Below are positions 9,704 to 29,698 of a stretch of 34,050 bases of DNA, piece after piece; the first letter of the stretch is position 1, and every line of letters starts with the position of its first letter. The translations under genes and the position numbers were made by a program. The stretch comes from Nitrospirota bacterium (GTDB lineage: Bacteria; Nitrospirota; Thermodesulfovibrionia; Thermodesulfovibrionales; UBA1546), in the NCBI GenBank assembly GCA_016212165.1, contig JACRGY010000127.1, positions 1 to 34,050 on the forward strand, written 5' to 3'. A model generated the notes under the pieces. That model was not told the DNA's origin. It was given only the letters and a program-made list of their open reading frames with translations, and did not search any database.

Positions 9704-10840
9704 TTAACGATTTGGTATCGAATTATAATTACCATCATAACAGTTGACTAGCTTTACATTACTTACGTCACCATTATACGTAACTGTGTTAATACCTGCA
9801 GTTAACAATGAGTTTACCATAATTACATTGTTTACAGCATAAGACTGAACAAGAACTACATTATTCCAGTTGATATTATCTGGGGCAGTGCTCGATGTTA
9901 CAATAGAACTATTCAGTACCTTCAGTGTTGAAGTGCCAGTCATATGCATCCCAGCCACAGAAAGGCCACTAACAGAACAATTTACATTGTTTAGTATAAC
10001 TGTACTATCATCAACACTCACACAAGGAGGTGGTTTTAAACCTTGCATAACAGGGGATATAGAATTGATATCTGCATTAAATATACTGAGCTTTCCACTA
10101 CTAACTTGTATCAAACGTCCATATCCATCTGCAGGGCCGTGTTGCCCTGTTATCGTTATGTTTCTTAACTCTGCATTTCTTGTTGTAGATGGTGGATAGT
10201 AATGCAACATTATACCATTACCATTTATTATTGTTGTTCCTTTTCCGCTTCCTTCAATATCCACATATGGTGGGATTCTCATAAAAGCATTATCGCTTAA
10301 GGTATAAACTCCCGGCATTATCTTAACCAGATATAGATTTGATGCTGAGGCATCTGTTATGGCATTTATTGCATTTACCGGGCTGGTGAAATCTCCACCG
10401 CTCGGCGCAACTATTATTGCATTGCTGTAGAACCCAATTTTATCCGGTGTTATAGCGCCAGCAGCAATCTTTGACGTTGCCACTGACCCATCTGCAATAT
10501 CAGAACCGGAATGTGTATGAGTTCCAAGCTTGGAGCCTGAAATCGGGCCAGTTATCTTTGCATCTGTTACTGCACCATCAGTGATTTTTGAAGTTGACAC
10601 CGCACCATCAACAATTTTGGGAGTTGTTACCGCCCCATCCTGTATATGACCTGTCTTAATACCGCTTCCAGTGTTGGTATCCTGCCCCGTCGTCTCGTCC
10701 GCTTCTTTGATATGCTGCGATAAGATAGAATCATCAGCTATAGGTAAAGGTGGGTTGGGGGCCCCTGCAAGGGTATTTGTGCCAAATAGCGAAAAACAAA
10801 AAACCATAACTACTAACAAACTGATTTTGTACTTTTTCAT
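9704..10840 (-). CDS. Secreted beta-helix protein with tail-fibre-like repeats
   Basis: This 378-residue exported protein has a signal peptide at about 1-25 (hydrophobic core ISLLVVMVFCFSLFG, cleavage near TLAGA). Next come four to five short repeats of the type DGAVTTPKIVDGAVSTSKI at about 65-145, known from phage tail fibres and surface proteins. The C-terminal part, about 150-378, is rich in Asn, Ser, Thr and beta-branched residues and looks like a right-handed parallel beta-helix (pectate-lyase-like) fold. No catalytic residues are recognisable, so adhesion or surface display is as likely as enzymatic action. The ATG at 10840 has a strong AGGAGG. The gene ends near the 9651-9692 hairpin and lies just outside the left end of the Mu-like element. 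Confidence 0.75.
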   Translation of the reverse strand: MKKYKISLLVVMVFCFSLFGTNTLAGAPNPPLPIADDSILSQHIKEADETTGQDTNTGSGIKTGHIQDGAVTTPKIVDGAVSTSKITDGAVTDAKITGPISGSKLGTHTHSGSDIADGSVATSKIAAGAITPDKIGFYSNAIIVAPSGGDFTSPVNAINAITDASASNLYLVKIMPGVYTLSDNAFMRIPPYVDIEGSGKGTTIINGNGIMLHYYPPSTTRNAELRNITITGQHGPADGYGRLIQVSSGKLSIFNADINSISPVMQGLKPPPCVSVDDSTVILNNVNCSVSGLSVAGMHMTGTSTLKVLNSSIVTSSTAPDNINWNNVVLVQSYAVNNVIMVNSLLTAGINTVTYNGDVSNVKLVNCYDGNYNSIPNR

Positions 10841-10946
10841 TGTTATTTCCTCCTGTTTATTTTATTTGCTAAAAATATAGAACGCTAAAAACACAGGCGC
10901 CTCAGGGTGAAACGCCGGACAAAATACACGGGTCTTTATTGCTCGG

Positions 10947-10951
10947 AGAAC
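10947..10951 (+). repeat. Left target-site duplication AGAAC
   Basis: AGAAC immediately precedes the first base of the element (TATAATC) and is repeated immediately after its last base at 24095-24099. Five base pairs is the usual duplication size for Mu-type transposition. Confidence 0.75.
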
Positions 10952-10966
10952 TATAATCTTTCAGGT

Positions 10967-11103
10967 AATTTGAGAAAGGGAAAGCGAGCGTCAGCGAAGC
11001 TATAACTCTTTATTTTTATTATCTTTTCCTCTACTTTATCCCTTTAAAGCCAGTTTGAGAAAAAATACACAAAATACACGGTTTTTACACTCAATTTGAG
11101 AAA
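10967..11103 (+). promoter_or_regulatory. Left-end transposase binding sites L1, L2, L3 (predicted)
   Basis: Three copies of a shared core in the same orientation: AATTTGAGAAA at 10967-10977, AGTTTGAGAAA at 11052-11062 and AATTTGAGAAA at 11093-11103. The L1-L2 step of 85 and L2-L3 step of 41 bases resemble the spread-out left end of phage Mu. Binding by the encoded MuA is inferred from position and from the same core at the right end. The 340 bases between 10841 and 11180 otherwise hold no gene. Confidence 0.65.
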
Positions 11104-11180
11104 ATTTAAAAGAGGCTAAACTTCCCAACGTTGGGACAAATAAAAGGTCTTTAAAGGGCTTCTTAAAACGGCCGCGGCGC

Positions 11181-12008
11181 TCAATTGTCAGCGCGTAAAG
11201 TAAGGATAGTAGTTTTTTCATTTATATAATCAAGACATCCATAAGCCTTATCTATTTTTGCAAATTCATCCTTGATAAGCCATATCTTAAACCGGAAATA
11301 ATTTGGATAAAGCCTTTTAGCCGCGGTAAGTGCATTCTGTAATGTAGGCTCGACATTCTCTTTTTTTATTGTTGTTTTCACAATAGAATATCCATAAACA
11401 ATACCTATTTTATCATCTATTTTTTTAGCAACATATTCTCCTGGAAGAGCCTTAGTGATTTCTCCCATTATCTCCCCAGGTTTAAGGCCAAGTTCAGATC
11501 CGGCTCCTATTATTTTAAATATTCCCATCATCGCTTGAGACTGACTACTTTCTCCGCTGTTTTTTATCTCGGCGGCGCGGTATATAAGAGACGATGGTTC
11601 TTTAGTAAATTCCAAATATTGAGAAATAATATTCACTTTATGCGCGTATGCAGATACTATAAGATTCTTTGCTTCGTTTAATTCTTTTTCAACTGTGTCA
11701 TTTTGAAAGGCTGGAACCTTAATATATAATATTTCCCGTCCTTGAGTATCAATTATCGGCAGCGCCTTTTGGGCTGCTATGGTTGCCTCCATCCATTTTG
11801 ATTTTCCCATTGCCTCGCCAAAGGGTTTATATGCTTTGTCTGCAACATCAGCTTTTTGAAGTATCTCACGATAGAAATTCACAAGAAGTTCTTTGTCTGA
11901 GAGCTTCGGGTTTGATGGGGCAGAGCAAGCAAATATCATTATCCCTATAATTACAATAGAAAGGAATAAAAAAACTTCTTTTTTTATTAAGTTCTTACCT
12001 TCACCCAT
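11181..12008 (-). CDS. Element-encoded lipoprotein, unknown function
   Basis: No family is recognised. The 275-residue product starts at ATG 12008 (AGGAG six bases upstream). A longer frame to 12215 exists, but it overlaps the upstream gene and has no signal. Residues 11-27 form a hydrophobic signal ending in the lipobox IFAC (Cys28), so it should be a membrane-anchored lipoprotein. The rest is soluble, mostly helical in the first half, with a possible alpha/beta C-terminal part. It begins one base after the stop of the preceding small gene (TAAATG arrangement), so the two are probably coupled. It is the last gene of a minus-strand run headed by the element's repressor, which suggests expression in the quiescent state. 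A surface-exclusion or host-fitness role is speculation. Confidence 0.75.
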   Translation of the reverse strand: MGEGKNLIKKEVFLFLSIVIIGIMIFACSAPSNPKLSDKELLVNFYREILQKADVADKAYKPFGEAMGKSKWMEATIAAQKALPIIDTQGREILYIKVPAFQNDTVEKELNEAKNLIVSAYAHKVNIISQYLEFTKEPSSLIYRAAEIKNSGESSQSQAMMGIFKIIGAGSELGLKPGEIMGEITKALPGEYVAKKIDDKIGIVYGYSIVKTTIKKENVEPTLQNALTAAKRLYPNYFRFKIWLIKDEFAKIDKAYGCLDYINEKTTILTLRADN

Positions 12009-12009
12009 T

Positions 12010-12234
12010 TTATTTCTCCTTGCCTGCACTCTTTTTCTTGGTTGAGGGCTTAACGTCTTTCTTACATTCCGGAGCATCAGGGTTACAGGCGCAATATTTT
12101 GAATAATTATGAATATGGTATCCTCCGCGCTTACGATCATTGTGTCCACCGCAAGAGTCCGTTCTGCCGCCATGCGCCCAGATGGATGATGCCATAAACA
12201 AACTGATAACGACAAAGAAAAACAATCTTTTCAT
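12010..12234 (-). CDS. Small secreted YHYH-type protein
   Basis: This 74-residue exported protein has a signal peptide MKRLFFFVVISLFMASSIWA and a short mature part beginning HGGRTDSCGGHNDRKRGGYH. That motif is typical of small periplasmic YHYH-type domains, whose clustered His and Cys could bind a metal. Further cysteines follow (CACNPDAPEC), then a Lys-rich tail. The start at 12234 was chosen over the longer frame to 12285 because it has a perfect AGGAGG upstream and begins exactly at the signal peptide. It is coupled to the downstream lipoprotein gene. No biochemical role can be assigned. Confidence 0.75.
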   Translation of the reverse strand: MKRLFFFVVISLFMASSIWAHGGRTDSCGGHNDRKRGGYHIHNYSKYCACNPDAPECKKDVKPSTKKKSAGKEK

Positions 12235-12274
12235 AAACCCTCCTTTATTTAATAAAAGTGGGCATTTTTTCGTT

Positions 12275-13231
12275 TTATTCCCCAATATGTTTTCCGCCCG
12301 ATTGAAAATATTTCGTTTTTAATAAAGCTTTTACAGTGTCGTCATTAGTCTCAATCTCTACAAGCTCCTTCATTAATTTAAACCGCAATTCTTCTACAGA
12401 ATCTTCACAGGGATATTGTATTTTTTTACAATCAGAGGTGTTAAAATTCTTTTTTGTTATCTCCTTGTACTCAACCTTATTATCCTTAATTATGCCGTTA
12501 CAGTGTATTATCCCTTGTTTGTATCCATCAATTTTTGAGAGATTTATAGTGCCATATTTTTTTGCATATATCTTTTCCTCTGTTATTTTATATTCAGCTT
12601 GTTTAATTCCGGTCATACACGAACAGATGTTACAAGTAATCTCGGCGGTTTTATATTCAATACTTTCAAATGCTTTTTCCTGAACATTGGAAAATATTTT
12701 TTGTGCTATTTCTTCCTTTATTGGTCTATCTTTTTGTCGTTGCTTTTCTTGTTCCTCTGCTTCCTTCTTCTTTTGTTTTTCTGCTAACTTTGCATTCCTT
12801 TCTTCTTTTTCTTTTTGCAACTCTTTAGGTATTTCCTCTATTCTCAGCATTACATATTCGGTCTTTTTATTTAACTCTTTTATAAAATCAGGAGAGAAAA
12901 ATTTTTGAGGCAATGCTTTTTTTGTGCTGTCACCCATAGATATGTAGCACCTCAACGCTTCCTTGCGCCCTTGTCCGTTATCATATGGCCTACAGCGATA
13001 CCATTCCTCTAAAAAATTAATAATATTTTGGGAGCTTTCGGACAATTCCTTTTTATCTTCACTTTGTTCCTCGGTCTTACTTGGTAAGTTATTAATAACT
13101 ACATAAGCACCTCTCCAATCTCCCTCTTTTATTAACTTTTCCAAATCACCGATTATTTGAGATGTCTCAGCAAAGGCAATACCCAAGAATATTATAAAGT
13201 TAAGGGCTAACAATATGATAATTCGCTTCAT
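12275..13231 (-). CDS. Exported coiled-coil, cysteine-containing protein, unknown
   Basis: This 318-residue protein matches no family I recognise. It has a signal peptide (about 1-21, cleavage after AFA). A helical region follows with two cysteines (80, 95) in a segment WYRCRPYDNGQGRKEALRCY. A strongly charged coiled coil spans about 130-185 (KEKEERNAKLAEKQKKKEAE). The C-terminal domain holds six more cysteines (200, 203, 205, 244, 268, 275), including CNICSC. The even number and extracytoplasmic location suggest disulfides. The ATG at 13231 follows GAGGGGG. It is the first cargo gene behind the repressor, 27 bases downstream of it. Confidence 0.75.
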   Translation of the reverse strand: MKRIIILLALNFIIFLGIAFAETSQIIGDLEKLIKEGDWRGAYVVINNLPSKTEEQSEDKKELSESSQNIINFLEEWYRCRPYDNGQGRKEALRCYISMGDSTKKALPQKFFSPDFIKELNKKTEYVMLRIEEIPKELQKEKEERNAKLAEKQKKKEAEEQEKQRQKDRPIKEEIAQKIFSNVQEKAFESIEYKTAEITCNICSCMTGIKQAEYKITEEKIYAKKYGTINLSKIDGYKQGIIHCNGIIKDNKVEYKEITKKNFNTSDCKKIQYPCEDSVEELRFKLMKELVEIETNDDTVKALLKTKYFQSGGKHIGE

Positions 13232-13258
13232 AATCCCCCTCGTCTGCTAATATATTTT

Positions 13259-13753
13259 TTACCCTGTATTACTCTTAGGTTCAGTTCCCTCATCCTCTGA
13301 AGAACCCACGTCTTGTTTTTTTTCTTTAACCTCATCATAGGCTTCCCCTATTACGCCCCTCACCCATGCCCTCGTTTGACGATCCCCTTCATTATATATA
13401 TGTATGAACTTCTTAACAAGCCTCATTAATTTACGGTCACCCGCCCCAGATGCTATTAAATCATCTATTATGATCATCAATTCCGGGTCATCAACGTGAT
13501 ATTCTCCCGCTGCCCTAAAAACCCCTTCTGCGTCTGAATAGATTTTATATTGACCTTCCCCTGTAAGAAGCCAGTTTAATAATAAACCCTCTTTATCGCA
13601 AAAGTGATAAAAGACATCATATGGGATAGTCTTGCGAATACGCCAAGTTGAAAGAGTATTTTGTTTCACTCCTAATAACTCCGCTAATTCAGAGTCTTTT
13701 TTTAGTTTCTTCATCTCCTTTATTTTGTCGAGTATTTCATTAATAGTTCGCAT
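13259..13753 (-). CDS. Phage repressor, CI-type N-terminal HTH
   Basis: This is the element's likely lysogeny repressor, 164 residues. The N-terminal region reads ELAELLGVKQNTLSTWRIRK followed by IPYDVFYHFCDKEGLLLNWL and LTGEGQ, the recognisable N-terminal domain of CI-like repressors. The remainder is an acidic helical tail without a visible peptidase Ser-Lys pair, so induction by RecA-driven self-cleavage is not supported. The start at 13753 is chosen over a TTG at 13774 because it keeps an AAGGA site. It is divergent from the Ner-like gene, and the 62 bases between them should contain the operators. It probably heads a transcript that includes the three cargo genes. Confidence 0.82.
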   Translation of the reverse strand: MRTINEILDKIKEMKKLKKDSELAELLGVKQNTLSTWRIRKTIPYDVFYHFCDKEGLLLNWLLTGEGQYKIYSDAEGVFRAAGEYHVDDPELMIIIDDLIASGAGDRKLMRLVKKFIHIYNEGDRQTRAWVRGVIGEAYDEVKEKKQDVGSSEDEGTEPKSNTG

Positions 13754-13767
13754 AATTGATTTTATCC

Positions 13768-13797
13768 TTGACAACTATATCGCATTTGTGATTTAAT
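13768..13797 (+). promoter_or_regulatory. Early promoter of the Mu-like element (predicted)
   Basis: A perfect -35 TTGACA at 13768-13773 is followed 18 bases later by TTTAAT at 13792-13797 (five of six). It lies in the divergent repressor/Ner region, directed at the early genes. Repressor and Ner binding here is expected from phage Mu but no operator repeat is obvious. Confidence 0.6.
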
Positions 13798-13815
13798 GTT
13801 CTACAGGTAAACGAA

Positions 13816-14019
13816 ATGTTAAGGAATAGCACAAAAAAAGACCTATACAGAATCAATATCACTGCCCTTGCAAAACGCATTGGCCGCACCCGCACATGGG
13901 TATCTCTTGTTGTAAATGGGCACGAGGAAAGTCCGGTTACAAGGGAGCTTATAGCCTCTGCCCTGGGCGTAACGGTCAATGAACTCTGGCCGGAGCATAA
14001 CCGCAGGAAAGCCGCATGA
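13816..14019 (+). CDS. ner: Ner-like HTH regulator
   Basis: This small DNA-binding protein of 67 residues reads through as one helix-turn-helix: ITALAKRIGRTRTWVSLVVN, then SPVTRELIASALGVTVNELW. In Mu-like phages the first early gene, Ner, is a Cro-like repressor of both the early promoter and the lysogeny repressor gene. Position (first gene, divergent from the repressor) and size fit. Its ribosome site is weak. A terminator-like hairpin follows 30 bases downstream, which could limit early read-through. Confidence 0.75.
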   Translation: MLRNSTKKDLYRINITALAKRIGRTRTWVSLVVNGHEESPVTRELIASALGVTVNELWPEHNRRKAA

Positions 14020-14048
14020 GCGCACATATATATAATGGAGTCCCCCTT

Positions 14049-14089
14049 AGGGCGTCATGGTGCCAGCCAGCGGCGCCCTTCTTTTTTTA
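14049..14089 (+). terminator. Rho-independent terminator after the Ner-like gene
   Basis: AGGGCG at 14049-14054 pairs with CGCCCT at 14074-14079, with partial pairing extending inward, and is followed by TCTTTTTTTAT. It sits inside what should be a single early operon, so attenuation or antitermination may control transposase expression. Confidence 0.7.
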
Positions 14090-14125
14090 TAGCTTCAATT
14101 TTATATTTTTTTGCCTATTCGGTCA

Positions 14126-14770
14126 ATGTCAAAAATCTTCCTTTTTTCCGGTGTGCATGTGAATAAATTCGAAAACTATAAAAATGCTTATGAGATTTTG
14201 GATGCGGTCATTGATGAATGGTGCGACAGGGAGCGCGAACGCCGCAGGCAAGAAGGGCTTCCGCCTATCAGCAAACTCGAACTCAAAAACGAACTCGGCA
14301 GGGCTGCAGGGCTCGGAAACGGAGACGCTGATAACTCGGCAGGAAAAGGCATCTATCGTTATTGCAGCGGGGAGACACCCATAACAGTAGATAAGGCCAT
14401 GCAGATATGCCACTACATTAAAAGCTATGAATTCATACAGTGGATGGGCTATCAGACCGGCATGCTCATGACCCACAGAAGTATTATCGAAAACCTTGAC
14501 GGCATTAATGAAGAAGACATACTCAGCGAAATAGTTAAATGCCTTAAAGACACTACAAAGTTTGTGGAAACACTGTCCAGCACTTATCAGTCAAAAGCCA
14601 GCTTCGATGCAATCAGGATTATAGAGGATGTCTTTATGAGAGCGATTCTCCAGATGGAAAAGACTCGCCTAATGCTCAAAAAACTTGTAGAGATGATGCT
14701 TGAGCCGGGTACTCAAGTATCATTCTGGTTGATGCCGGAAAAGAAAAAGAAAAATAAAAAAAGAGAATAA
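14126..14770 (+). CDS. Early-region protein, unknown, phage-associated
   Basis: I do not recognise the family. The product (about 214 residues from ATG 14126; TTG 14111 and a GTG at 14159 are alternatives, none with a clear Shine-Dalgarno) is soluble. It has an Arg/Glu-rich N-terminal helix (RERERRRQEGLPP), a middle part resembling a helix-turn-helix region (GIYRYCSGETPITVDKAMQI) and a highly basic C-terminal tail (EKKKKNKKRE). It lies between Ner and the transposase, where Mu-like phages keep small regulators. A DNA-binding accessory role is possible but not shown. Confidence 0.65.
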   Translation: MSKIFLFSGVHVNKFENYKNAYEILDAVIDEWCDRERERRRQEGLPPISKLELKNELGRAAGLGNGDADNSAGKGIYRYCSGETPITVDKAMQICHYIKSYEFIQWMGYQTGMLMTHRSIIENLDGINEEDILSEIVKCLKDTTKFVETLSSTYQSKASFDAIRIIEDVFMRAILQMEKTRLMLKKLVEMMLEPGTQVSFWLMPEKKKKNKKRE

Positions 14771-14773
14771 GAA

Positions 14774-15004
14774 ATGCCTATAAAGGAAGCATTATCAGCG
14801 ATCACAAATCATATCGGGCAGCAGTTTATTTTCGGCGATGCAGAGTTAAAGGTCATAGAAAAAGCCACGGGGTTTTTCAGTGGGAGATGGGCGAAAGAAG
14901 ACGGTTACTGGGTTCGGGTCACACGCGGAAACTACAAAGGATTTATGAAAGGCGAGGAGTTATTAATGTCGCAGAGAGAAATTAATAAAAATACAAGGGG
15001 GTAA
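14774..15004 (+). CDS. Small early-region protein, unknown
   Basis: This is a 76-residue soluble protein starting four bases after the previous stop. It contains SGRWAKEDGYWVRVTRGNYK, reminiscent of a small beta-barrel or SH3-like fold, but no family can be named. Its stop abuts the next start, and the GGGGG of its last codons serves as the next gene's ribosome site. Translational coupling supports it being a real gene. Confidence 0.6.
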   Translation: MPIKEALSAITNHIGQQFIFGDAELKVIEKATGFFSGRWAKEDGYWVRVTRGNYKGFMKGEELLMSQREINKNTRG

Positions 15005-15820
15005 ATGGAACTCATGCCGAAGAAGAAGGAAAAACCGAAATCAAAAAAAGTTGCTGAAAAAATTGACCCGGAAATCGCTGAACGACAGGCACTTACAAAA
15101 CAAATTGAGGGCGATCTACCATACGAACGCACAATCTATATTAATGAGGCGCGTCGCTTCCTCAAAAGATCCATAGAGGATATCCTCACTGTCGGCAAGC
15201 TCTTACTCATAATCCAAGAAAAAGAAGGACATGGCGATTTTGGACGCATAGTAGAAGATGAGATTGGTCTCCCCCGGCGTACAGCTTATAGATTTATGAA
15301 TGCCGCAATGAAGGCAGAAAAATATCCTGCCATCAATTTGTGCCAATTGGCACAAGTGAGCAAGGTTTATGCCCTTCTCGAAGCCCCGGAAGAGGAGCTA
15401 AAAAAGTTTGAACAGCTTGGTCTTTTTGCCGGAAAGGATAGGGATGAATTGATGTCTATGTCCCACACGGATTTGCGGAAATTGGTCGAAGACCTCAGGG
15501 ACAACACCGATGAGATAGTCAAGGGAAAGACTGATGAAATACGCCGACTAAATAAACAACTTCAAAAAGAACGTGATGAGTTATACAGCATGGTTCCTAC
15601 CGCTCCGGACGGTTCATGGGCAGAGAAACCACTCTCAATGATACAGGAAGCATTCATACGCCTCGACAATCTCCTGTCGAGCTTTGCCTTTGACCCTTCA
15701 ATTATCGGCAACGACAAACTCCAGGCCAAAGTCGAGGGCTTCCGGGTCGAGATGGAAAAACGCTCTGTCCTTTTTATTGAGCGATGGGAAGAGCATACCG
15801 GAAAGAAGGTCGGCAAATGA
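15005..15820 (+). CDS. DUF3102-like phage protein
   Basis: This 271-residue protein lies directly upstream of the transposase. It has a Lys-rich N-terminus, then a region resembling the DUF3102 family common in phages and plasmids: a helix with INEARRFLKRSIEDILTVGK, EKEGHGDFGRIVEDEIGLPR and TAYRFMNAAMKAEKY. That region looks like a DNA-binding helical module. A coiled coil follows near 170-200. Function is unknown in the family. The ATG at 15005 follows AGGGGG; a second ATG three codons later is an alternative. The stop overlaps the MuA start (ATGA). Confidence 0.7.
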   Translation: MELMPKKKEKPKSKKVAEKIDPEIAERQALTKQIEGDLPYERTIYINEARRFLKRSIEDILTVGKLLLIIQEKEGHGDFGRIVEDEIGLPRRTAYRFMNAAMKAEKYPAINLCQLAQVSKVYALLEAPEEELKKFEQLGLFAGKDRDELMSMSHTDLRKLVEDLRDNTDEIVKGKTDEIRRLNKQLQKERDELYSMVPTAPDGSWAEKPLSMIQEAFIRLDNLLSSFAFDPSIIGNDKLQAKVEGFRVEMEKRSVLFIERWEEHTGKKVGK

Positions 15821-17823
15821 GAACACTGTCTGTCGTCTCTCCCATAAAGATGTCAGGGGACAGTCCCGAATCGGAGCCTGCCCCGGTGAATACGGGGGCT
15901 TCGCAGTCCCCTCAGGAAAGCCTTCCGCTCTTCACCGATGACGGCATGTCCGCAAAGTCCCGGCAGGTCGCACTGGCCCGCATGGACATTCTTAAAGCGT
16001 GGGAAGAATACAGGCGCACGCATGAGGGCAATAAAACCGATCTTGATCAAGAGTTCGAGAAGGCATATAACACGGGTATAGTTCTGCGGAACATACGCGC
16101 CGTGCTCGGCGATACCACAGTCAAGACATTATACCGATGGAAGAAATCCCTGAATTGCACCGGCGACTGGAAACTCCTTGCGCCTCAATACAACGGGTCG
16201 CAGTCGCAGCGGCTCTTCGGGGCAGAGGAAAAAATATTTCTCGGCTGCCTACTCAGTGCAAATAAAGTCTCTATCGGCGAGGCAACCAGGCTTACTAAAT
16301 TCATACTCAAAAGCAGAGGTATCCCCACAGCAAAATCAGACATGACCTTCCGGCGCTATGCTGAAGACTTCATGGCAAAAAAATATGACGTGTGGGTGCT
16401 CATGCGCGAAGGACAAAAGGCATTAAAGGATAAAGTCGAACCATACATCAAGAGAGACCCCTCGTTGCTGAACGTAGGAGATGCTCTTGTCGCAGACGGC
16501 CACCGCCTGAACTTCCAGATCATCAATCCATATACCGGCAAGCCCTGCCGCGCAACGTTGGTGGCATACATAGACTGGAAGTCCTTTGACCTCGCAGGCT
16601 ATGAAATCATGGTCGAAGAAAACACTCAGTGCATAGCCTCCGCCCTGCGGAATTCAATAATCGCCCTCGGCAAAAAACCGGTTGTCTCCTATCAGGATAA
16701 CGGCAAGGCATTCCGATCAAGATTCTTCACGGGCTCTGTGAATCTGGAAGAAGCCGGTTTCAACGGCCTCTTCGGCAGACTCGGGATAATCCCCCTCTTT
16801 GCGATGCCATATAACGCCCGCGCAAAGGTCATTGAAAGGTGGTTTAAAGAGTTTTCAAACACCTTTGAAAGGCTGCTGCCATCATATATAGGTTCATCCA
16901 TCTCAGACAAACCGGCTTATATGATGCGCAACGAGAAATTTCACAAGGCACTCCATAACGAATATATCCCCACGATAGAAGAGACAGTTCAGTTAATCCA
17001 GATGTGGCTTGAATTCCACCGCTCGCAGGAATGCCCGCATGTCAAAGGCAAGCCCATAGGAGAGGTCTTCAGCGAAGGCAAGGGGCCCGGAGTGGAGATC
17101 AATGAGCTTGACGATCTCATGATGGACGTCACCATAAAAAATATCAGAAGGAACGGCATCACATTTTTAAATGCGGATTACTATGACGACAACCTCTACG
17201 GACTCAGAGAACAGGTGATGATACGCTACAGCCTCTTTGATCTGTCATATATAAAGGTATATGCCCTGAACGGAGAATTCGTCTGCGTTGCAAAGCGCGT
17301 GATGAGCGTTCATCCATTGGCGCGAGTCATGGGCACACCCAAGGACGTAGAAGAACTCAGGCGCGGCATTACAATGCAGCGCAAAGCTGAGAAAAAAACA
17401 ATTCAGGGAGCGAAAGAACTTATCGGTCTTAAAAAAGCCGCTGAACTTGACTGGCAGAAAGTTGTGGAGATTTCCCCGCGCATTGCAGACAGGCTTGAGG
17501 CAGAGAACATACAGACACCTGCCATTGAGGAGAGGATACCGGAGGAATGTGTGACCACCCCTTTATCCCCTCCTAAAATAGGCGGGGAGCTAACGGACAC
17601 GGGCGAACAGCAGCGAACACAGGCGGATATCACCCGCCTCGAACCGCAGAGCCGCCCTCTCTTCAATGACAACATCGAACGCTATCAGTGGCATCTCGAA
17701 TACGGTGTTTTTACCGAGGAAGATCAGGCATGGGTGAATTGGTTCATGACAACAGATGACTTCAATATGCTCTTTACATTTTTTGAAAAACAGAAAAGAA
17801 AGGAGGCTTTAGTAACGCAGTAA
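15817..17823 (+). CDS. muA: MuA-type DDE transposase
   Basis: This is the catalytic transposase of the element. It binds the ends and performs nicking and strand transfer for replicative transposition. In the 668 residues an N-terminal DNA-binding part precedes the RNase H-fold core with the DDE triad: Asp227 (VADGHRLN), Asp294 (SYQDNGKAF) and Glu340 (KVIERWFKEF). A Mu-type beta-barrel segment follows (NADYYDDNLYGLREQVMIRY), then a C-terminal region expected to contact MuB. The start at 15817 uses the ATGA overlap with the upstream gene; a longer frame to 15784 exists but has no reason to be used. Near residues 580-592 the protein is encoded by a palindromic repeat (TTPLSPPKIGGE), probably an insertion in a linker. 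All catalytic residues are present. Confidence 0.95.
   Translation: MRTLSVVSPIKMSGDSPESEPAPVNTGASQSPQESLPLFTDDGMSAKSRQVALARMDILKAWEEYRRTHEGNKTDLDQEFEKAYNTGIVLRNIRAVLGDTTVKTLYRWKKSLNCTGDWKLLAPQYNGSQSQRLFGAEEKIFLGCLLSANKVSIGEATRLTKFILKSRGIPTAKSDMTFRRYAEDFMAKKYDVWVLMREGQKALKDKVEPYIKRDPSLLNVGDALVADGHRLNFQIINPYTGKPCRATLVAYIDWKSFDLAGYEIMVEENTQCIASALRNSIIALGKKPVVSYQDNGKAFRSRFFTGSVNLEEAGFNGLFGRLGIIPLFAMPYNARAKVIERWFKEFSNTFERLLPSYIGSSISDKPAYMMRNEKFHKALHNEYIPTIEETVQLIQMWLEFHRSQECPHVKGKPIGEVFSEGKGPGVEINELDDLMMDVTIKNIRRNGITFLNADYYDDNLYGLREQVMIRYSLFDLSYIKVYALNGEFVCVAKRVMSVHPLARVMGTPKDVEELRRGITMQRKAEKKTIQGAKELIGLKKAAELDWQKVVEISPRIADRLEAENIQTPAIEERIPEECVTTPLSPPKIGGELTDTGEQQRTQADITRLEPQSRPLFNDNIERYQWHLEYGVFTEEDQAWVNWFMTTDDFNMLFTFFEKQKRKEALVTQ
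17556..17591. repeat. GC-rich palindromic repeat, copy in muA
   Basis: CCCCTCCTA (17567-17575) faces TAGGCGGGG (17579-17587), preceded by ACCACCCC and followed by AGC. It matches the copies at 18941-18993 and 19357-19388 in order and sequence, and is translated in frame near the end of MuA. Confidence 0.75.
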
Positions 17824-17847
17824 AAAAAGAAGGCCGCATAAGCGGCC
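17822..17847 (-). terminator. Terminator-like hairpin on the minus strand between muA and muB
   Basis: GGCCGC (17832-17837) and GCGGCC (17842-17847) form a perfect six-pair stem with a four-base loop. Read on the minus strand it is followed by TTCTTTTTTTA. It would stop antisense transcription entering muA; on the plus strand it has no T-run. Confidence 0.5.
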
Positions 17848-17880
17848 CAGTTCAGAAATACTCAGGAGGATTATAACAGA

Positions 17881-18564
17881 ATGAAAAAAGTTTTTGCAAA
17901 GACCTCTAACGTGAACAATTTTGTTTCCGCTATGACAAGGCTCCATAAACGTGAAGACGGAATTCCGGGTATGTCCCTCCTGTTTGGAGAGCCGGGGCTC
18001 GGCAAGACCCGCACGTGCCTATGGTGGTGCGCCCAAAATGACGGGGCATTTATCAGGACAAAAAAACTAATGAACGGTCGGTGGCTGCTCGAAGAGATAG
18101 TTGCGGAGCTGGGAGAAGCGCCGCAGAGAAGGATATCCGATATCTTCCGGCAGGCGGTTGATCGTCTGCTTGAAAGGCCGACGACATTATTTATCGACGA
18201 GGCTGATTACTTAGCTCATGACGCACGTGTCATAGAAACATTGAGGGACATACACGATACCACCGGGACTCCACTTGTACTTATCGGCATGGATCAGGCA
18301 GATAAAAAGCTCATGAGGTTCAAGCATCTCTATGACAGATTTTCTGAGATAATCAGATTTCACCCTCTTTCAGAGGCGGATGTTAAATCAGTAGCAGAGC
18401 AAATGTGTGAGTGCAAGCTCTCCGATGACGCTGTGCAGCACATCCACAGCCAGGCCAACCGTTTCAGGCGCGTTGTGGTGCATCTCTATAGGGCAGAGGC
18501 CATAGCAAGGACCAACAGCCTCAAGGAAGTGACGGCAGCGCATCTCACAGGGGTGAAGAAATGA
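17881..18564 (+). CDS. muB: MuB-type AAA+ target-capture ATPase
   Basis: This ATPase binds target DNA, stimulates MuA and confers target immunity in Mu-like elements. The 227 residues show Walker A GEPGLGKT (36-43) and Walker B LFIDEAD (103-109), then LVLIGMD with a sensor-type position, and a C-terminal helical domain (FRRVVVHLYRAEAIART). It is shorter than phage Mu MuB (312 residues) and lacks the long N-terminal HTH part, as in many compact relatives. It has a strong AGGAGGA at 17864-17870, and the stop overlaps the next gene (ATGA). Confidence 0.92.
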   Translation: MKKVFAKTSNVNNFVSAMTRLHKREDGIPGMSLLFGEPGLGKTRTCLWWCAQNDGAFIRTKKLMNGRWLLEEIVAELGEAPQRRISDIFRQAVDRLLERPTTLFIDEADYLAHDARVIETLRDIHDTTGTPLVLIGMDQADKKLMRFKHLYDRFSEIIRFHPLSEADVKSVAEQMCECKLSDDAVQHIHSQANRFRRVVVHLYRAEAIARTNSLKEVTAAHLTGVKK

Positions 18565-18995
18565 CATCCCAGGAAAAGATATGGAAAATTTTCAGGGGTC
18601 TTAATGAGTTTACGGTTGAAGAGGTGCAGGTTCTTACAGGAGCAAATGCCAACACAGTTATCTGCTTTATTCATTTGCTTTCGAAGGCGGGTTACCTGAG
18701 GAAAGTTGGCAAAAGGAAATCCATAAAGGGCTGGCCTCAGAAGGTATGGAAGCTAATAAAAAACACAGGGCCCAAATGTCCTGTACAGAAGAGATGTCTA
18801 TATGATCCAAATATTGAGAGTCTTATGGAAGTAAAAGATAATGAGACCTTAAATGGAGACTCGCTTCCAGGAGATACAGAAAAGAAAGCCGTTTTTCACG
18901 TGAAGCCCGGAAGTTTTCTGGACAGGGTAGAAAAAGCAACCACCCCGGCCTGCGGCCACCCCTCCTTAAAAAGGCGGGGAGCCAAGGGAGGGTGA
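18561..18995 (+). CDS. Winged-helix-like element protein with a repeat-derived C-terminus
   Basis: This is a 144-residue protein whose N-terminal 70 residues look like a winged helix (FTVEEVQVLTGANANTVICF, then HLLSKAGYLRKVGK and WKLIKN). It suggests DNA binding or regulation; no named family is recognised. It is translationally coupled to muB. The last 18 residues (TTPACGHPSLKRRGAKGG) come entirely from a GC-rich palindromic repeat. The native C-terminus was therefore probably replaced or extended when that repeat entered. Confidence 0.72.
   Translation: MTSQEKIWKIFRGLNEFTVEEVQVLTGANANTVICFIHLLSKAGYLRKVGKRKSIKGWPQKVWKLIKNTGPKCPVQKRCLYDPNIESLMEVKDNETLNGDSLPGDTEKKAVFHVKPGSFLDRVEKATTPACGHPSLKRRGAKGG
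18941..18993. repeat. GC-rich palindromic repeat, copy at the end of the winged-helix gene
   Basis: CCCCTCCTT (18959-18967) faces AAGGCGGGG (18971-18979), with flanking ACCACCCCGG before and AGCCAAGGGAGGG after. It forms the end of one coding sequence, and its GGGAGGG (18986-18992) is the ribosome binding site of the next gene, six bases before ATG 18999. Confidence 0.75.
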
Positions 18996-18998
18996 ACC

Positions 18999-19337
18999 AT
19001 GTGGCTTGATATTCTACGGAAAGAAGTCGCGGCTATCGGGCCGGATGGAAAACCCAAAGGGCCTAAGCAGGTAGCAAAAGAACTCGGCATCTCGCGCGCT
19101 GCCGTTGATCTCGTCTGCCAGGGGAAATACAATGCATCCACAGCCAAGATAGAACAGCGCGTTAAAAAAATCTTCGGCAATGACAACGGCGGCATCACCT
19201 GCCCTATACTCGGCTCTATCTCCCCGAATACATGCTCAGAAAAATGGAACCTTGCAAAGAAGATTGGCATGAAGGCAGGCAATCCGGAAACATTAAAGCT
19301 CTATAAAACCTGTACAAACTGCTCGGTGAGGAAATGA
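18999..19337 (+). CDS. HTH protein with C-terminal cysteine cluster
   Basis: This 112-residue protein has an N-terminal helix-turn-helix (PKQVAKELGISRAAVDLVCQ followed by GKYNASTAKIEQRVKKIFG). Its C-terminal part holds four spaced cysteines (CPILGSISPNTC and CTNC) that could bind zinc. It resembles small regulators carried between MuB and Gp16 in Mu-like phages; the exact role is unknown. Its ribosome site lies in the upstream palindromic repeat. Its stop overlaps the next start. Confidence 0.72.
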   Translation: MWLDILRKEVAAIGPDGKPKGPKQVAKELGISRAAVDLVCQGKYNASTAKIEQRVKKIFGNDNGGITCPILGSISPNTCSEKWNLAKKIGMKAGNPETLKLYKTCTNCSVRK

Positions 19338-20707
19338 CGAACAGCGCGGCATCAACCACCCCTGCCCCTCCTTATCAAGGAGGGGAGCAGATAGACAAAA
19401 GGCAGATTAAGCTCATCCATACACTGGAGCACGCACTGGCGCTGACAAAGGAAGCATACGGCGACCGCATTATGGAAAAACACGGCTTCAGTAATAGTTG
19501 CAAAGACCTCTCCCATCACGAGGCAGAGCAGCTCATTAAGGCTTGGGAAAAAGAGGCATTAGAAAAAGGCGTCTGGAAGACCGGCAAGGAAAAATACGAA
19601 GACCTTGGCAATCGCCAAGGCATGGCCAGCGCCCTGTGGGGAATTTATAAGGGTATAGAATGGACAGGTGATCAGATATTCCCGGACACAGCAGATTCAG
19701 GAAATCTCGATCATCACGGCTGGGTGCGGGGGATTGAGCGCACCTATGAAGAGACGGATGAAGCATATCTTGCCCGGCTGCTGGATTGGATCAGGAGGCC
19801 GCCTGCCGGTGGTAATAAATACGACTATATCAAGTGGGAGATGGAGATTGATAATATAGCGGCTGCATACTGCTTCCCTTTGGCGCAGGGACTCGGCACC
19901 GTGGACGTGGTAATCGTTGCGAATGAGGCAAACACCGGCTCGGAGATACCGAGCTCCTCTGCACGTATCGGTAAAGTCACTACGGTCTCGGCAAACAAGC
20001 TCATTGACGGCGCGGCAGATTTTGCGGAAGCGTCTCACCCTGTCTCAGTAGGGGATATTGTGAGGAATCCGGTCTCCGGCATAGAGACAACGGTCGTCTC
20101 TGTTGACAGCGCGTCTCAGCTTACCCTCACAGATGATATTTTCAAGGCCGTAAGCGAGAGTTATATTCTCCATAACCATACAGGGGAGAATACTGCCTTT
20201 TCCGCGGGAAAACTTGTGGACGCAAACGCAAAATTTAACGATGCTACATGGACGATTAAAAAAGGCGATAAGGTTGAAAATATCACAGATGGGACAGAGA
20301 CAACAGTTGTCTCAGTGGACAGCGCAACACAATTGGCTCTGGCTGATGACATTTTTGAGGCCACAGCTAAAAAATATAAGGTGATATCACTCATCGCAGA
20401 GGTGAAATCCAGCACAGAGAACCTAAGGCCCGTAACGGCATCTGTAGTGCGTATCCTGCCGCCAACAATTCTCACTCAAAATATTGATATCGAAGTCACG
20501 GGGCAGAATGCAAATAAATCACAGGCGGCGGCCGACATTGAAGCATATCTTAAGACCCTGATACCGGGGCAGACGCTCTATAAAACACAGCTCGTTAATA
20601 TAGCAATAGATAATGGAGCTGATGATGTAACCATAACAACGCCTGCAAACAATGTTGTGCCTGGCGCATACGAGATGATACGGCCGGGGGTAATCAGTGT
20701 TACATAA
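19334..20707 (+). CDS. Chimeric gene: Gp16/GemA-like N-terminus joined to baseplate protein J
   Basis: Residues 20-99 match the start of the Mu Gp16/GemA regulator family (RQIKLIHTLEHALALTKEAY ... GNRQGMAS), which normally continues PKQLRKIEALW. From residue 100 the sequence switches to baseplate assembly protein J (ALWGIYKGIEWTGDQIFPDT, VRGIERTYEETDEAYLARLL, and the C-terminal AEVKSSTENLRPVTASVVRI). In Mu these genes lie on opposite sides of the whole lysis-head-tail module, so an in-frame deletion is the simplest explanation. Inside the J part, residues 218-278 and 288-349 are tandem copies of one extra domain (both contain ETTVVSVDSA, with SQLTL or TQLAL following). The first 19 residues come from a palindromic repeat (TTPAPPYQGGE). 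The fused protein is unlikely to serve either original function. Confidence 0.82.
   Translation: MTNSAASTTPAPPYQGGEQIDKRQIKLIHTLEHALALTKEAYGDRIMEKHGFSNSCKDLSHHEAEQLIKAWEKEALEKGVWKTGKEKYEDLGNRQGMASALWGIYKGIEWTGDQIFPDTADSGNLDHHGWVRGIERTYEETDEAYLARLLDWIRRPPAGGNKYDYIKWEMEIDNIAAAYCFPLAQGLGTVDVVIVANEANTGSEIPSSSARIGKVTTVSANKLIDGAADFAEASHPVSVGDIVRNPVSGIETTVVSVDSASQLTLTDDIFKAVSESYILHNHTGENTAFSAGKLVDANAKFNDATWTIKKGDKVENITDGTETTVVSVDSATQLALADDIFEATAKKYKVISLIAEVKSSTENLRPVTASVVRILPPTILTQNIDIEVTGQNANKSQAAADIEAYLKTLIPGQTLYKTQLVNIAIDNGADDVTITTPANNVVPGAYEMIRPGVISVT
19357..19388. repeat. GC-rich palindromic repeat, copy at the start of the chimeric gene
   Basis: CCCCTCCTT (19365-19373) and AAGGAGGGG (19377-19385) are perfect nine-base arms with the three-base loop ATC, preceded by ACCACCCCTG and followed by AGC. 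It is the cleanest copy of the family and is translated as the N-terminus of the fused protein. Confidence 0.8.
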
Positions 20708-21245
20708 AGACTCGCTTAAACTTTTATTTCCCTTTGATCTCGGCGGTGAATTTAACAAAGACATCGAGATTGAAGGCAAGTATCTCGATACCGCCCAGGC
20801 GAGAGTTGACAACCTGCTTAAAGAGATGTTCCCTGACGGGGCCTATGAGCTTTTATGCTGTTGGGAAAGGGTCTGCGGCATTACGCCCGGAGCCGATGAC
20901 ACATTACAGCTGAGGCGAAATTCTATTATCAGAAAGCTCAGGGAGATTGGCAGACTCGACAGAAAGTATTTTATGGATGTTGCTGCCGCAATGGGATACA
21001 CCATCACCATTGAGGAGCTTCATCCATTCATGGCAGGACTCAGTTACGCGGGTGATACTCTTTATGTCGAGGAGAGTATTTTTATATGGCGGGTGCATAT
21101 ATCGGGGCAGTCTCTTTATTATTTTAGATCCGGGGAATCAAGCGCAGCAGAGAGGCTTCTCTGGTGGCCTGTGCAGACCATAATTGAGGATTTGTTAAAT
21201 GACCTTAAACCGGCGCACACTTATATAATTTTTGTCTATAACTAA
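20697..21245 (+). CDS. Tail protein, Mu Gp48/DUF2313-like
   Basis: This 182-residue baseplate-associated tail protein has the expected order after baseplate J. It carries features of the Gp48 (DUF2313/YmfQ) family: an N-terminal helix leading to LLKEMFPDGAYELLCCWERV, then RRNSIIRKLREIGRLDRKYF and AAAMGYTITIEELHPF, and a C-terminal LLNDLKPAHTYIIFVYN. It starts at GTG 20697, overlapping the previous stop, with GGGGG upstream. It appears intact, although the partners it needs are missing from the element. Confidence 0.85.
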   Translation: MLHKDSLKLLFPFDLGGEFNKDIEIEGKYLDTAQARVDNLLKEMFPDGAYELLCCWERVCGITPGADDTLQLRRNSIIRKLREIGRLDRKYFMDVAAAMGYTITIEELHPFMAGLSYAGDTLYVEESIFIWRVHISGQSLYYFRSGESSAAERLLWWPVQTIIEDLLNDLKPAHTYIIFVYN

Positions 21246-21259
21246 GGAGGAATAAAAGC

Positions 21260-22648
21260 ATGGCCAAAACAAATTTTGTAGACGGAAACCCGCAGCAAGG
21301 GGTGCAGGGGACAATAGTTAACGCGGCATTTCTCAATAAGCTTTTTGGGTCTTCGGGCCATCGGCATGATGGCGCGGATGCAGACGGCAGCGCCGCCATA
21401 GATTACGCAGCCGACACCGGCGCGGCAAACGCATATGTTATAGCGCTTGTGCCTGCGCTCACAGAATATATTGTTGGTATGCCTATCCATTTCATGGCTG
21501 CCAACGCCAACACCGGGGCTTCCACACTTAATGTTAACGGCCTTGGCGCAAAGGATATAAGTAAGAGCTTTGATCAGCCCCTTGCGGCAGGGGATATTAA
21601 GGCCGGGCAGATAATAACAGTGGTATATGACGGGGTGGACTTTCAGATGATTAGTCTTCTTGGGGAGCAGCACATCCGCAATAAAAATACATTGCTCAAC
21701 GGGGATGGGATTATCACAGAGAGGGCTTTGGGAGCTGCTGTTAATGATGATGTATATACTTTTGATCGCTGGATAGTGCTCTCTGACGGCAATGGGGTGG
21801 TCACGCCGTCTCAGGAATCAGTTGATTTACCTTCGGGCGCGAGAGCAGCTATGAAACTGACTATTGCTGTTGCCAACAAGAAATTCGGCCTGCTGCAAAT
21901 AGTCGAAAATGCAAATTGCGCTCGCCTTATTAATTCCATCGCATCATTGGGCGCGAAGGCAAAAGCTTTAGGGTTGAACAACCTTCGTGTGGCTATTTTA
22001 TCATGGCAAGGCGCTAAGGATAGCGTAACTTCAGATGTGGTAGCTGCATGGGGTGCAGAGGGAGTGAACCCCACACTTGTCGCAAATTGGGTCTATGAAA
22101 ATGCGCCTGCCAACCTGGCACTCTCAGCAAACTGGCAGGATATCTTTAAGGCGGAAAATATCAACATTGATGCAGCGGGGGCCAAAAACGTTGCGGTTTT
22201 TCTCTGGCTTGACGATACGGACGCTGCTATTAATGATTATCTACTGTTGACCGACATCCAGTTTGAGCATGGGGTTCGCACAGATTTTGAGAGGCGTGAT
22301 ATAGGGCAGGAAAAAATATTATGCATGAGGTATTTTGAAAAGAGTTATGACAGTGAGACAGCGCCGGGCACCGTAACGGTCACAGGAAGTTATTATTTCG
22401 GCTACCTGGCAGGAAATGCTATAGCATATAGCTCGCATAATTTTAAGGTCTGTAAAAGAGTGATTCCTTCATTTACGCCTTATTCTCCTAATTCCGGCGC
22501 GAGTGGGTATATATATATGGCGGGAGGCCCTGGCGGTGATAGGGTTCCAACGGTTACCGTGGCAAAAAACAATTACACAATAAATCTCGCTATGGATAGC
22601 GGCAATACTTTTATCAATTGGCACTTCGCTGCCGATGCAGAACTTTAA
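21260..22648 (+). CDS. Phage tail fibre protein
   Basis: This is a 462-residue tail fibre or spike. The N-terminus (NFVDGNPQQGVQGTIVNAAF) and the following GHRHDGADADGSAAIDY are typical baseplate-proximal tail-fibre sequence. The middle holds a repetitive Ala/Gly/Asn-rich domain (ANANTGASTLNVNGLGAKDI). From about 140 onward there is a lectin/jelly-roll-like portion (ITERALGAAVNDDVYTFDRW) and a distal receptor-binding part. AAGGAGG lies at 21244-21250. It is followed by a fibre-assembly gene. No signs of decay are visible, which is surprising in a particle-defective element. Confidence 0.85.
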   Translation: MAKTNFVDGNPQQGVQGTIVNAAFLNKLFGSSGHRHDGADADGSAAIDYAADTGAANAYVIALVPALTEYIVGMPIHFMAANANTGASTLNVNGLGAKDISKSFDQPLAAGDIKAGQIITVVYDGVDFQMISLLGEQHIRNKNTLLNGDGIITERALGAAVNDDVYTFDRWIVLSDGNGVVTPSQESVDLPSGARAAMKLTIAVANKKFGLLQIVENANCARLINSIASLGAKAKALGLNNLRVAILSWQGAKDSVTSDVVAAWGAEGVNPTLVANWVYENAPANLALSANWQDIFKAENINIDAAGAKNVAVFLWLDDTDAAINDYLLLTDIQFEHGVRTDFERRDIGQEKILCMRYFEKSYDSETAPGTVTVTGSYYFGYLAGNAIAYSSHNFKVCKRVIPSFTPYSPNSGASGYIYMAGGPGGDRVPTVTVAKNNYTINLAMDSGNTFINWHFAADAEL

Positions 22649-22660
22649 CAAGGAGGAGAA

Positions 22661-23065
22661 ATGTATAAGATTTCAGGCAATGGGGTAAAGAGAATAAGTG
22701 ATGGGACAATTATTATGGATGAGACAGGGAATAAAGACTGGCAGGAATATCAAGTATGGTTGGCCGCAGGGAATGCGCCTGATCCCGAGTTTACAATTGA
22801 TGAATTAAGGGGGAGTCGTATCACCGAAACAAAACGCGTGGCAGCCCTGAAAATTGATATAGTATTGCCCGACTGGCAGGTGCGCCGGCACCACGATCAA
22901 TGCGAGCTTGGAGTGGCCACCACACTGACAGCAGCCGACTATACAGCGAGGCAGCAGGCATGTCAGGAGATCAGAGACGCATCCAATACCATCGAAGCCG
23001 AGGTGCAGGCATCGAGTGATCCTAATTCAATAGATGTAGTGAATCACACGGCTTGGCCGGTTTGA
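22661..23065 (+). CDS. Tail fibre assembly-like protein
   Basis: This is a 134-residue chaperone-like or fibre-tip protein. The N-terminal half reads KDWQEYQVWLAAGNAPDPEF, the W-EY--WLA-GN-P-P pattern common to tail fibre assembly and short tail proteins. The C-terminal half is helical, with TAADYTARQQACQEIRD. It is placed directly after the fibre gene, with AAGGAGG before the ATG. The assignment is by motif and position. Confidence 0.75.
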   Translation: MYKISGNGVKRISDGTIIMDETGNKDWQEYQVWLAAGNAPDPEFTIDELRGSRITETKRVAALKIDIVLPDWQVRRHHDQCELGVATTLTAADYTARQQACQEIRDASNTIEAEVQASSDPNSIDVVNHTAWPV

Positions 23066-23070
23066 TTTAA

Positions 23071-23150
23071 GGAGTAGGGAGCAGGCGTCCCGCGGCAAAC
23101 GGGACACCGATCTATGCACAAACATAGACCACAGGAACCCCTGCTACTCC
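23071..23150 (+). ncRNA. Candidate structured RNA: closed three-way junction
   Basis: The outer stem GGAGTA (23071-23076) pairs with TACTCC (23145-23150). After a GGGA bulge, GCAGG (23081-23085) pairs with CCTGC (23140-23144). Inside are two perfect six-pair hairpins: GTCCCG/CGGGAC (23087-23092 with 23100-23105, seven-base loop) and TCTATG/CATAGA (23111-23116 with 23123-23128, six-base loop). Unpaired joins are ACCGA and CCACAGGAAC. Another palindrome, GTCCGGAC, follows at 23156-23163. It lies between the fibre-assembly gene and the methyltransferase, about 60 bases before the latter's start, so it may be a 5' leader control element or a separate small RNA. It matches no family I know. Confidence 0.45.
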
Positions 23151-23211
23151 CCGTCGTCCGGACCGGACCGACATGGGATTATAGCAGGCAGAATTAAAAG
23201 GAGTCTATGTT

Positions 23212-23997
23212 ATGAACAGCTTTCTCGCATGGATTGGCGGCAAGCGTATCCTCGCAAAAACAATAATCTCAATGATGCCGGAGCATAAGACTTATGTTGA
23301 GGTGTTCGGCGGAGCCGGGTGGGTGTTATTTCGAAAACAGCCTTCAGAAGTAGAAACATGGAACGATCTAAATTCCGACCTCGTTAATCTCTTTAGAGTT
23401 GTGAGAAATAAGCTGCATGTTTTTAAGCGCAGACAGTATTTCCTCTTATCAAGCAGGGAAGAATATTTTATCTTTCAGAAGGCTATAAAAACAGGGAAAT
23501 TCAAAGACGATGTGGATAGGGCCATCGCCTTTTACTATTGCATTAGAAATTCATTCGGGAGCGGGATATTCACGGGGTATGCCTTTGGCCCCAATCGAGG
23601 GCCGAAATACTGTGAAGGGATAGAAAAGCTTTAAGCGGCCAGGGATAGGTTAAAGAACGTGTATATAGACAACCTGTCTTTTGACCGGCTTATTCCGAAT
23701 TACGACCGGAAAGAGACGTTATTCTACTGCGACCCGCCATACCGCATGCTGCTTGATAAGCCTTGCGGTAAACAATACTACCAGCACACCTTCACAGAGG
23801 ATGACCACACGAGATTAAGGAATACTCTCAAAGGGATATCGGGAAGGTTTATCCTATCTTATGATGACCACCCCACGATAAGAAAGCTTTACAGTCGTTT
23901 TAGGGTGGTAGAAACCGCTCCGGTGCTATACAGTATGAATAACCGGCAAAACTCAAAAGCCAGACGGGTCGGAGAGTTGATAATAACCAATTTTTGA
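23212..23997 (+). pseudogene. dam: Dam-type DNA adenine methyltransferase interrupted by one in-frame stop
   Basis: This is an N6-adenine methyltransferase of the Dam class. The first part (140 residues) holds the N-terminal AWIGGKR and the AdoMet motif VEVFGGAGWVLF. After TAA at 23632-23634 the same frame continues through AARDRLKNVYIDNLSFDRLI to the catalytic DPPY (YCDPPYR) and a normal end at 23997. Total length, 261 codons, is normal, and only one base change is needed to restore it. It starts at ATG 23212 with AAAGGAG. A GTG at 23659 could start a separate C-terminal half, giving a split enzyme, but it has no ribosome site. In phage Mu this position holds the DNA-modification gene mom, so an anti-restriction role fits. 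Confidence 0.82.
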
Positions 23998-24046
23998 GGG
24001 TTTAAATGGCCATTAAAGGCCGACTGAAAGGGGTCAAAAAGCCGTT

Positions 24047-24079
24047 TTTCTCATTTTGGGTGTTACAATTTCTCAAATT
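24047..24079 (-). promoter_or_regulatory. Right-end transposase binding sites R1 and R2 (predicted)
   Basis: On the complement, AATTTGAGAAA (24069-24079) and AAAATGAGAAA (24047-24057) are 22 bases apart, the same step as R1-R2 in phage Mu. R1 starts 15 bases in from the terminus at 24094, as does L1 at the other end. Binding by MuA is inferred. Confidence 0.68.
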
Positions 24080-24094
24080 GGCGGTTAGGTTATA

Positions 24095-24099
24095 AGAAC
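24095..24099 (+). repeat. Right target-site duplication AGAAC
   Basis: AGAAC directly follows the last element base (GGTTATA) and matches the copy before the left end at 10947-10951. Confidence 0.75.
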
Positions 24100-24310
24100 T
24101 CAAGACAAGCCTCATAAGGTTGCGTATCTTTCCAAGAATTTTATCCCCCTTCTTAGAAGAATGTGCTGTTTTATATCATTCAAGAAATCTTTGTGTCAAG
24201 GGGAATCCGAGTCTTTGTCAACAAAGTTTTTAGTATATGCCCATTCTATCTGGAAGTTTTATGAGCTAAAAAGCTTGACTCTTAGCGCTATAACTGCAAA
24301 AATATTCTCA
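24100..24310 (+). other. Leader region between the Mu-like element and the ceramide genes
   Basis: No gene is supported. A perfect palindrome CTTTGT-CA-ACAAAG lies at 24213-24226 and could be an operator for the downstream genes. A TTGACT at 24275 has no matching -10 at good distance. The open frame upstream of 24311 is not similar to the epimerase family and is treated as leader. Confidence 0.35.
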
Positions 24311-26466: not shown

Positions 26467-26478
26467 CCTGGATTTATC

Positions 26479-27591: not shown

Positions 27592-27720
27592 AAGCCTGCC
27601 TGCGTAATACAATATTTTAAACCTCAAAGGTATATCCATTGTTTGAACAGTTTAGCGGCTGATTTAAGGTCAAAGGCATAAGAAAAATCCTGAACCAATT
27701 TAAAATATAAGTCGTAGCCA

Positions 27721-27729
27721 TGATATAAT
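27721..27729 (+). promoter_or_regulatory. Extended -10 promoter element for the pilus operon
   Basis: TGATATAAT is a perfect extended -10 (TGnTATAAT), 34 bases before the mshI-like start. No good -35 box is visible, which is common for extended -10 promoters. Confidence 0.5.
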
Positions 27730-27762
27730 GCAAGTAACTCACTTCTCCCTTTGGAGGTATAT

Positions 27763-29130: not shown

Positions 29131-29135
29131 ATATT

Positions 29136-29678: not shown

Positions 29679-29698
29679 ATTAGAACCTAAAACTCGAA

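Follow-up and report, generated by a model that had tools for sequence, protein, structure and literature searches.

The window analysed here, 34,050 nucleotides of the Nitrospirota bacterium contig JACRGY010000127.1 (assembly GCA_016212165.1), carries a Mu-like element whose ends do not begin with TG, and this raises the question: Where exactly does the element start and stop, and what kind of element is it? The element is exactly bounded, occupying positions 10952-24094 (13,143 bp) with termini 5'-TATAA ... TTATA-3'. TATAA occupies 10952-10956, with TTATA, its reverse complement, at 24090-24094, and immediately outside lie the two plus-strand copies of a 5-bp target-site duplication, AGAAC, at 10947..10951 and 24095..24099. 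The left junction reads GCTCGG-AGAAC-TATAATCTTTCAGGT-AATTTGAGAAA, and the right end, in the inward direction, TATAACCTAACCGCC-AATTTGAGAAA-N11-AAAATGAGAAA. In a BLASTN comparison with the contig of the closest relative (G001:C42, prophage at 10815-51909), the match spans window 10952 to 24094 with nothing outside, homology beginning and stopping at these very bases. The boundaries and flanking AGAAC proposed in an earlier note on this DNA are thus borne out, both by the letters at the two junctions and by the limits of the alignment.

The insertion sits in a dispersed intergenic repeat (window 10800-10951 and 24095-24218), copies of which occur in each of the genus's four genomes. One paralogous copy within this genome (G000:C76, L061) is unoccupied, its flanks being joined with a single AGAAC in the sequence TTTATTACTCGGAGAACTCAAGACAAGCC (shorter quotations CTCGGAGAACTCAAGAC and CTCGGAGAACTCAAGACAAGCC). 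The empty site had been predicted to read GCTCGG-AGAAC-TCAAGAC in a related strain; the sequence was right, but it was found in a paralogous repeat copy of the same genome and not at the locus of a related strain. Genomes of the same genus yielded no orthologous empty site: G001 lacks the left flank, and G002 and G003 gave only short matches to pieces of the repeat. A T follows AGAAC in both the left end and the empty site, which would permit a 6-bp duplication at this insertion alone; I read 5 bp because the other copies of the element give 5 bp.

Inside the termini, an exact core, AATTTGAGAAA, lies 15 bp from each end: L1 at 10967-10977 (+) and R1 at 24069-24079 (-). TATAA is therefore equally distant from the core at both ends, as the earlier note had it. 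The left terminus with its core (10952..10977) has the same layout in G001, G088, G114, G115 and G181, and its right counterpart (24069..24094, minus strand) was read from the window letters and by comparison. The note's further cores were also recovered. Two presumed transposase sites, L2 (AGTTTGAGAAA, 11052..11062, +) and L3 (AATTTGAGAAA, 11093..11103, +), lie at +85 and +126 from L1, in positions conserved in G001 and G088, and a third, R2 (AAAATGAGAAA, 24047..24057, -), lies 22 bp from R1, a spacing repeated in the right ends found. Escherichia phage Mu has three transposase sites at its left end and several at its right, where R1 and R2 are about 22 bp apart, and makes a 5-bp duplication; judged by sequence layout, the window element likewise has several presumed sites per end at Mu-like spacing. 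Cores with up to two mismatches are no more frequent in the window than in shuffled sequence (21 matches against a shuffle mean of 26.7). It is the three exact copies, the way they are spaced and, most of all, comparison with other elements that make the cores significant, not their raw count. Other exact copies of AATTTGAGAAA in the genome were considered as solo ends, but in the five contexts read none has TATAA at the right distance, and they are put down to chance.

TG-CA termini are the usual mark of Mu-like elements, with exceptions in Leptospira, and the window element has TA-TA. Could the true ends be canonical TG-CA, with the TATAA boundary misplaced or mutated since insertion? According to the Leptospira survey of 2021, every Mu- or B3-like phage described earlier had kept TG-CA, which was until then considered universal for Mu-like phages (PMC8705779); the D3112 group ends in TGT...ACA (PMC5977238), and TG is also the start of the known phages Mu and BalMu-1. 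Against this stand six elements at unrelated sites that have TATAA at both ends, diverge in sequence immediately outside, and each carry their own 5-bp duplication, six different 5-mers in all. Five are separate Nitrospirota insertions, of which the window copy is the only one in its genome. The G001 prophage, from the same genus as the window (41,095 bp, duplication CCTGT), has MuA 85-86% identical to that of the window element, collinear genes and the same termini, as well as head and tail modules. G088, of the same order, has a 37,136-bp relative with the duplication GCAAA; in G114 and G115 the left and right ends are on separate contigs, with flanks matching as GCGCA and GCCTT, respectively. 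The sixth is IMG/VR contig 3300017705_001252 (1219-37734), with TATAA ends and the duplication GTAAT. When copies were sought in other genomes, as the earlier note had advised, the termini thus proved the same rather than different, and its observation of non-TG ends holds in independent copies.

Scans for ends in which the first bases were left free bear on the same question. A plain IMG/VR scan for TATAA-N10-AATTTGAGAAA turned up 101 stretches, most of them probably due to chance, and was replaced by a right-end pattern of two cores at 22-bp spacing. With the first two bases free, this pattern found 10 contigs, five with TG and five with TA; a second pattern, with base 1 set to T and base 2 free, found 17, of which 13 had TG and four TA. 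Every one of these right ends (10/10 and 17/17) is therefore TG or TA. One of the TG contigs, L286 (39,873 bp), has the right end and the record length of BalMu-1. Among the TA contigs checked, phage head or tail genes were present in L101 and in the records of L102 and L248, and a MuA match in the record of L251. Within the phylum, the right-end pattern occurred in 5 of 396 genomes, always with TA, and a reversed control pattern in none. Close relatives with the same layout but with TG also exist: G186 has TG at both ends and the duplication TTCAT, and G177 has TG at both ends. No mixed TA/TG element was seen among the elements read at both ends; the two ends always agree, which also tells against TG-CA as the true ends of the window element and leaves that reading scarcely worth entertaining. 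I infer instead that the TA ends of this family do transpose. Two records call for separate remarks. L101 (IMGVR_UViG_3300010400_000035) has a right end with TA and this layout, a distant transposase (32% over a short stretch) and this gene on the strand opposite its tail genes. The record of Fusobacterium phage phiRTG5 (OR492272.1) seems to stop inside the right end, as the near-identical viral contigs L287 and L290 run on to TGTACGATGAAAAACGGTTTGAGAAA.

What lies between these ends? Two minus-strand ORFs (within 11181-13231) separate the left end from the repressor and are possibly cargo expressed in the lysogen: one, at 11181..12215, is putatively lipoprotein-like and without Pfam or PHROG family, and the other, at 12275..13231, has a signal-peptide-like start and no family above its cut-off. 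A CI-type phage repressor follows on the same strand (13259..13774; Pfam Phage_CI_repr, E 5e-13, and PHROG repressor families). The remaining genes are on the plus strand, beginning with an early gene of PHROG_1748, a family with no assigned function (15005..15820; E 9e-33). A MuA-type DDE transposase of 679 aa with the Mu C-terminal domain (15784..17823; Mu-transpos_C, Pfam 4e-14, PHROG_310 1e-78) has profile matches to MuA 4fcy and TnsB, and in alignment its invariant D238, D305 and E351 form the presumed DDE triad. Adjoining it is a MuB-type AAA ATPase, a DNA transposition protein (17881..18564; PHROG_296 1e-48, Pfam AAA_22 and TniB). Then come a transcriptional regulator-like early gene (18561..18995; PHROG_2030), another early gene (18999..19337; PHROG_2119), and a fusion ORF (19334..20707) that joins the N-terminus of a gp16/GemA-region early gene (PHROG_286) in frame with the C-terminal part of baseplate J, its halves being separate genes in G001. 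The right part encodes a Mu Gp48-like baseplate wedge protein (20697..21245; Pfam 7e-32, PHROG_203), a tail fibre protein (21260..22648; PHROG_4492 1e-28), a small tail-fibre-associated protein (22661..23065; weak PHROG tail matches) and a D12-class adenine methyltransferase (23212..23997) broken into two ORFs (23212-23634 and 23659-23997), of which G001 has an intact 266-aa homologue.

Mu-like phages have genomes of about 36-41 kb with head and tail modules; G001 has both and G088 the length, and the window copy, at 13.1 kb, falls well short. The reason is seen in the alignment with G001. The two are collinear up to window 19626 (G001 19257), after which the window resumes at G001 47705, so that about 28.45 kb (G001 19258-47709) are missing at a junction, window 19622..19626 (+), whose five bases, ATGGC, are common to both parental sides. 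The G001 genes within the missing part include terminase, portal, minor head, protease, major head, tape measure and baseplate hub; those for the repressor, MuA, MuB and the tail tip are kept in the window copy, together with both ends. In G001 itself, terminase, portal and minor head genes (L068:7233-11594, that is G001:C42 27233-31594) lie on the strand opposite the other late genes.

The window element is thus almost certainly an internally deleted Mu-like transposable prophage, a natural mini-Mu, of a TA-ended lineage. An ancestor of about 37-41 kb would have inserted itself into the dispersed repeat by transposition of the MuA type, either replicative or linked to repair. MuA would have joined the two 3' ends to the target strands at points 5 bp from each other, which duplicated AGAAC. 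MuA would bind the TGAGAAA cores (L1, L2 and L3 on the left, R1 and R2 on the right) and would cut after the terminal 3'-TA, the counterpart of the 3'-CA found in most of the family. The packaging, head and most tail genes were lost later, in a deletion of 28.45 kb between two ATGGC repeats. Virions would no longer be possible; transposition, or mobilisation by a related helper phage, is conceivable in principle because the repressor, MuA, MuB and both ends are retained. The 13.1-kb Mu-like element of the earlier note accordingly stands in its boundaries but not as a natural size.

Retention of the transposition genes, the repressor and the ends could also mean that these 13.1 kb form a compact transposon or satellite in its own right, with tail genes kept on purpose. 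The in-frame fusion ORF at the junction and the Mu-like remnant of similar size, also headless, in G018 might be taken the same way. However, on either side of a single 5-bp junction the window copy runs collinear with G001 in sequence and in gene order, the retained tail genes are without partners, the methyltransferase is broken, and the G018 remnant retains different genes and lacks a matching duplication, so that a purpose-built compact element seems highly unlikely. The deletion rests on one assembly, G000 being a metagenome-type draft, and a draft of 202 contigs with 8% estimated contamination may invite suspicion of an assembly artefact. This I consider about as improbable, as the 5 bp in common at the junction are too short for overlap joining by a typical short-read assembler and no run of N is present there. 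As for the G018 remnant (L073/L074, G018:C39, ~18441-31687; ~13.2 kb), it holds MuA, MuB, tape measure and end cores, adjoins a tRNA-gene-like sequence, has flanking 5-mers that differ, and has probably been rearranged.

If the deletion derivative belongs to a TA-ended lineage, how is that lineage related to elements with TG? In a tree of 29 MuA proteins, which has long branches and an uncertain deep part, the window element, G001, G088 and G181, all TA, form one group (99/98), and G178 (TA) and G177 (TG) are sisters (100/99). Their right ends up to the first core read TATAACTTAACACGA in G178 and TGTAACTTAACAGGA in G177. The TG/TA labels need at least three changes on this tree. The number remains three without the two weakest TG labels, G018 (cores and TG at the right spacing, no matching 5-mer) and G193, and falls to two when G178 and G176, called TA from a single end, are removed as well. 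These end sequences, placed on the tree, provide evidence that TA ends have arisen more than once, by repeated TG/TA switching. A bolder proposal, to which I would give somewhat less than an even chance, treats the base pair at the tip of Mu-family ends as a recognition feature that can evolve and has switched repeatedly, perhaps keeping related elements out of reach of each other's transposases. At least three independent changes would have occurred within one end class, always at both ends together, which would imply that the transposase reads this base and co-evolves with it. A search for MuA residues separating TA from TG gave 18 columns against 22 in a sister-pair swap control, and thus no signal.

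Among known systems, the Leptospira WETA1 group (PMC8705779) is alike in carrying TA at the tips of both ends, in place of the TG-CA of its relatives, in its MuA/MuB-type transposition genes, and in the coexistence of both end types among related prophages. It is set apart by its description, in that the Leptospira TA-TA prophages are B3-related and have 6-bp duplications whereas the Nitrospirota elements have 5 bp. They also all belong to a single group, whereas here TG and TA appear to have changed places several times. Escherichia phage Mu shares the MuA and MuB genes but has TG-CA ends, another core sequence and a MuA whose similarity is detectable by profile only. Bacillus phage BalMu-1 (NC_030945) has an identical right-end layout (15 bp, AAAATGAGAAA, 11 bp, AAAATGAGAAA), but its ends start with TG and its MuA is 27% identical. 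The 'divergent end sequence class' suggested for the window element is thus divergent at base 2 only, its core and spacing being common to TG-ended elements including BalMu-1, and TA-TA ends as such had already been reported from Leptospira (PMC8705779). In the literature on TA-TA phage ends and transposable prophages, as far as the texts consulted extend, only that survey appears to concern TA-TA ends. The novelty lies in Nitrospirota elements that combine TA-TA ends with 5-bp duplications, and in the evidence for repeated TG/TA switching.

The Leptospira survey leaves open whether other bacteria carry TA-TA (PMC8705779), and the answer is that they do: TA-TA occurs in Nitrospirota and in several uncultivated phages, and wherever the two ends are both readable the duplication is 5 bp. 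For the question of how a transposase tolerates TA-TA, the sister elements of G177 (TG) and G178 (TA) supply the material.
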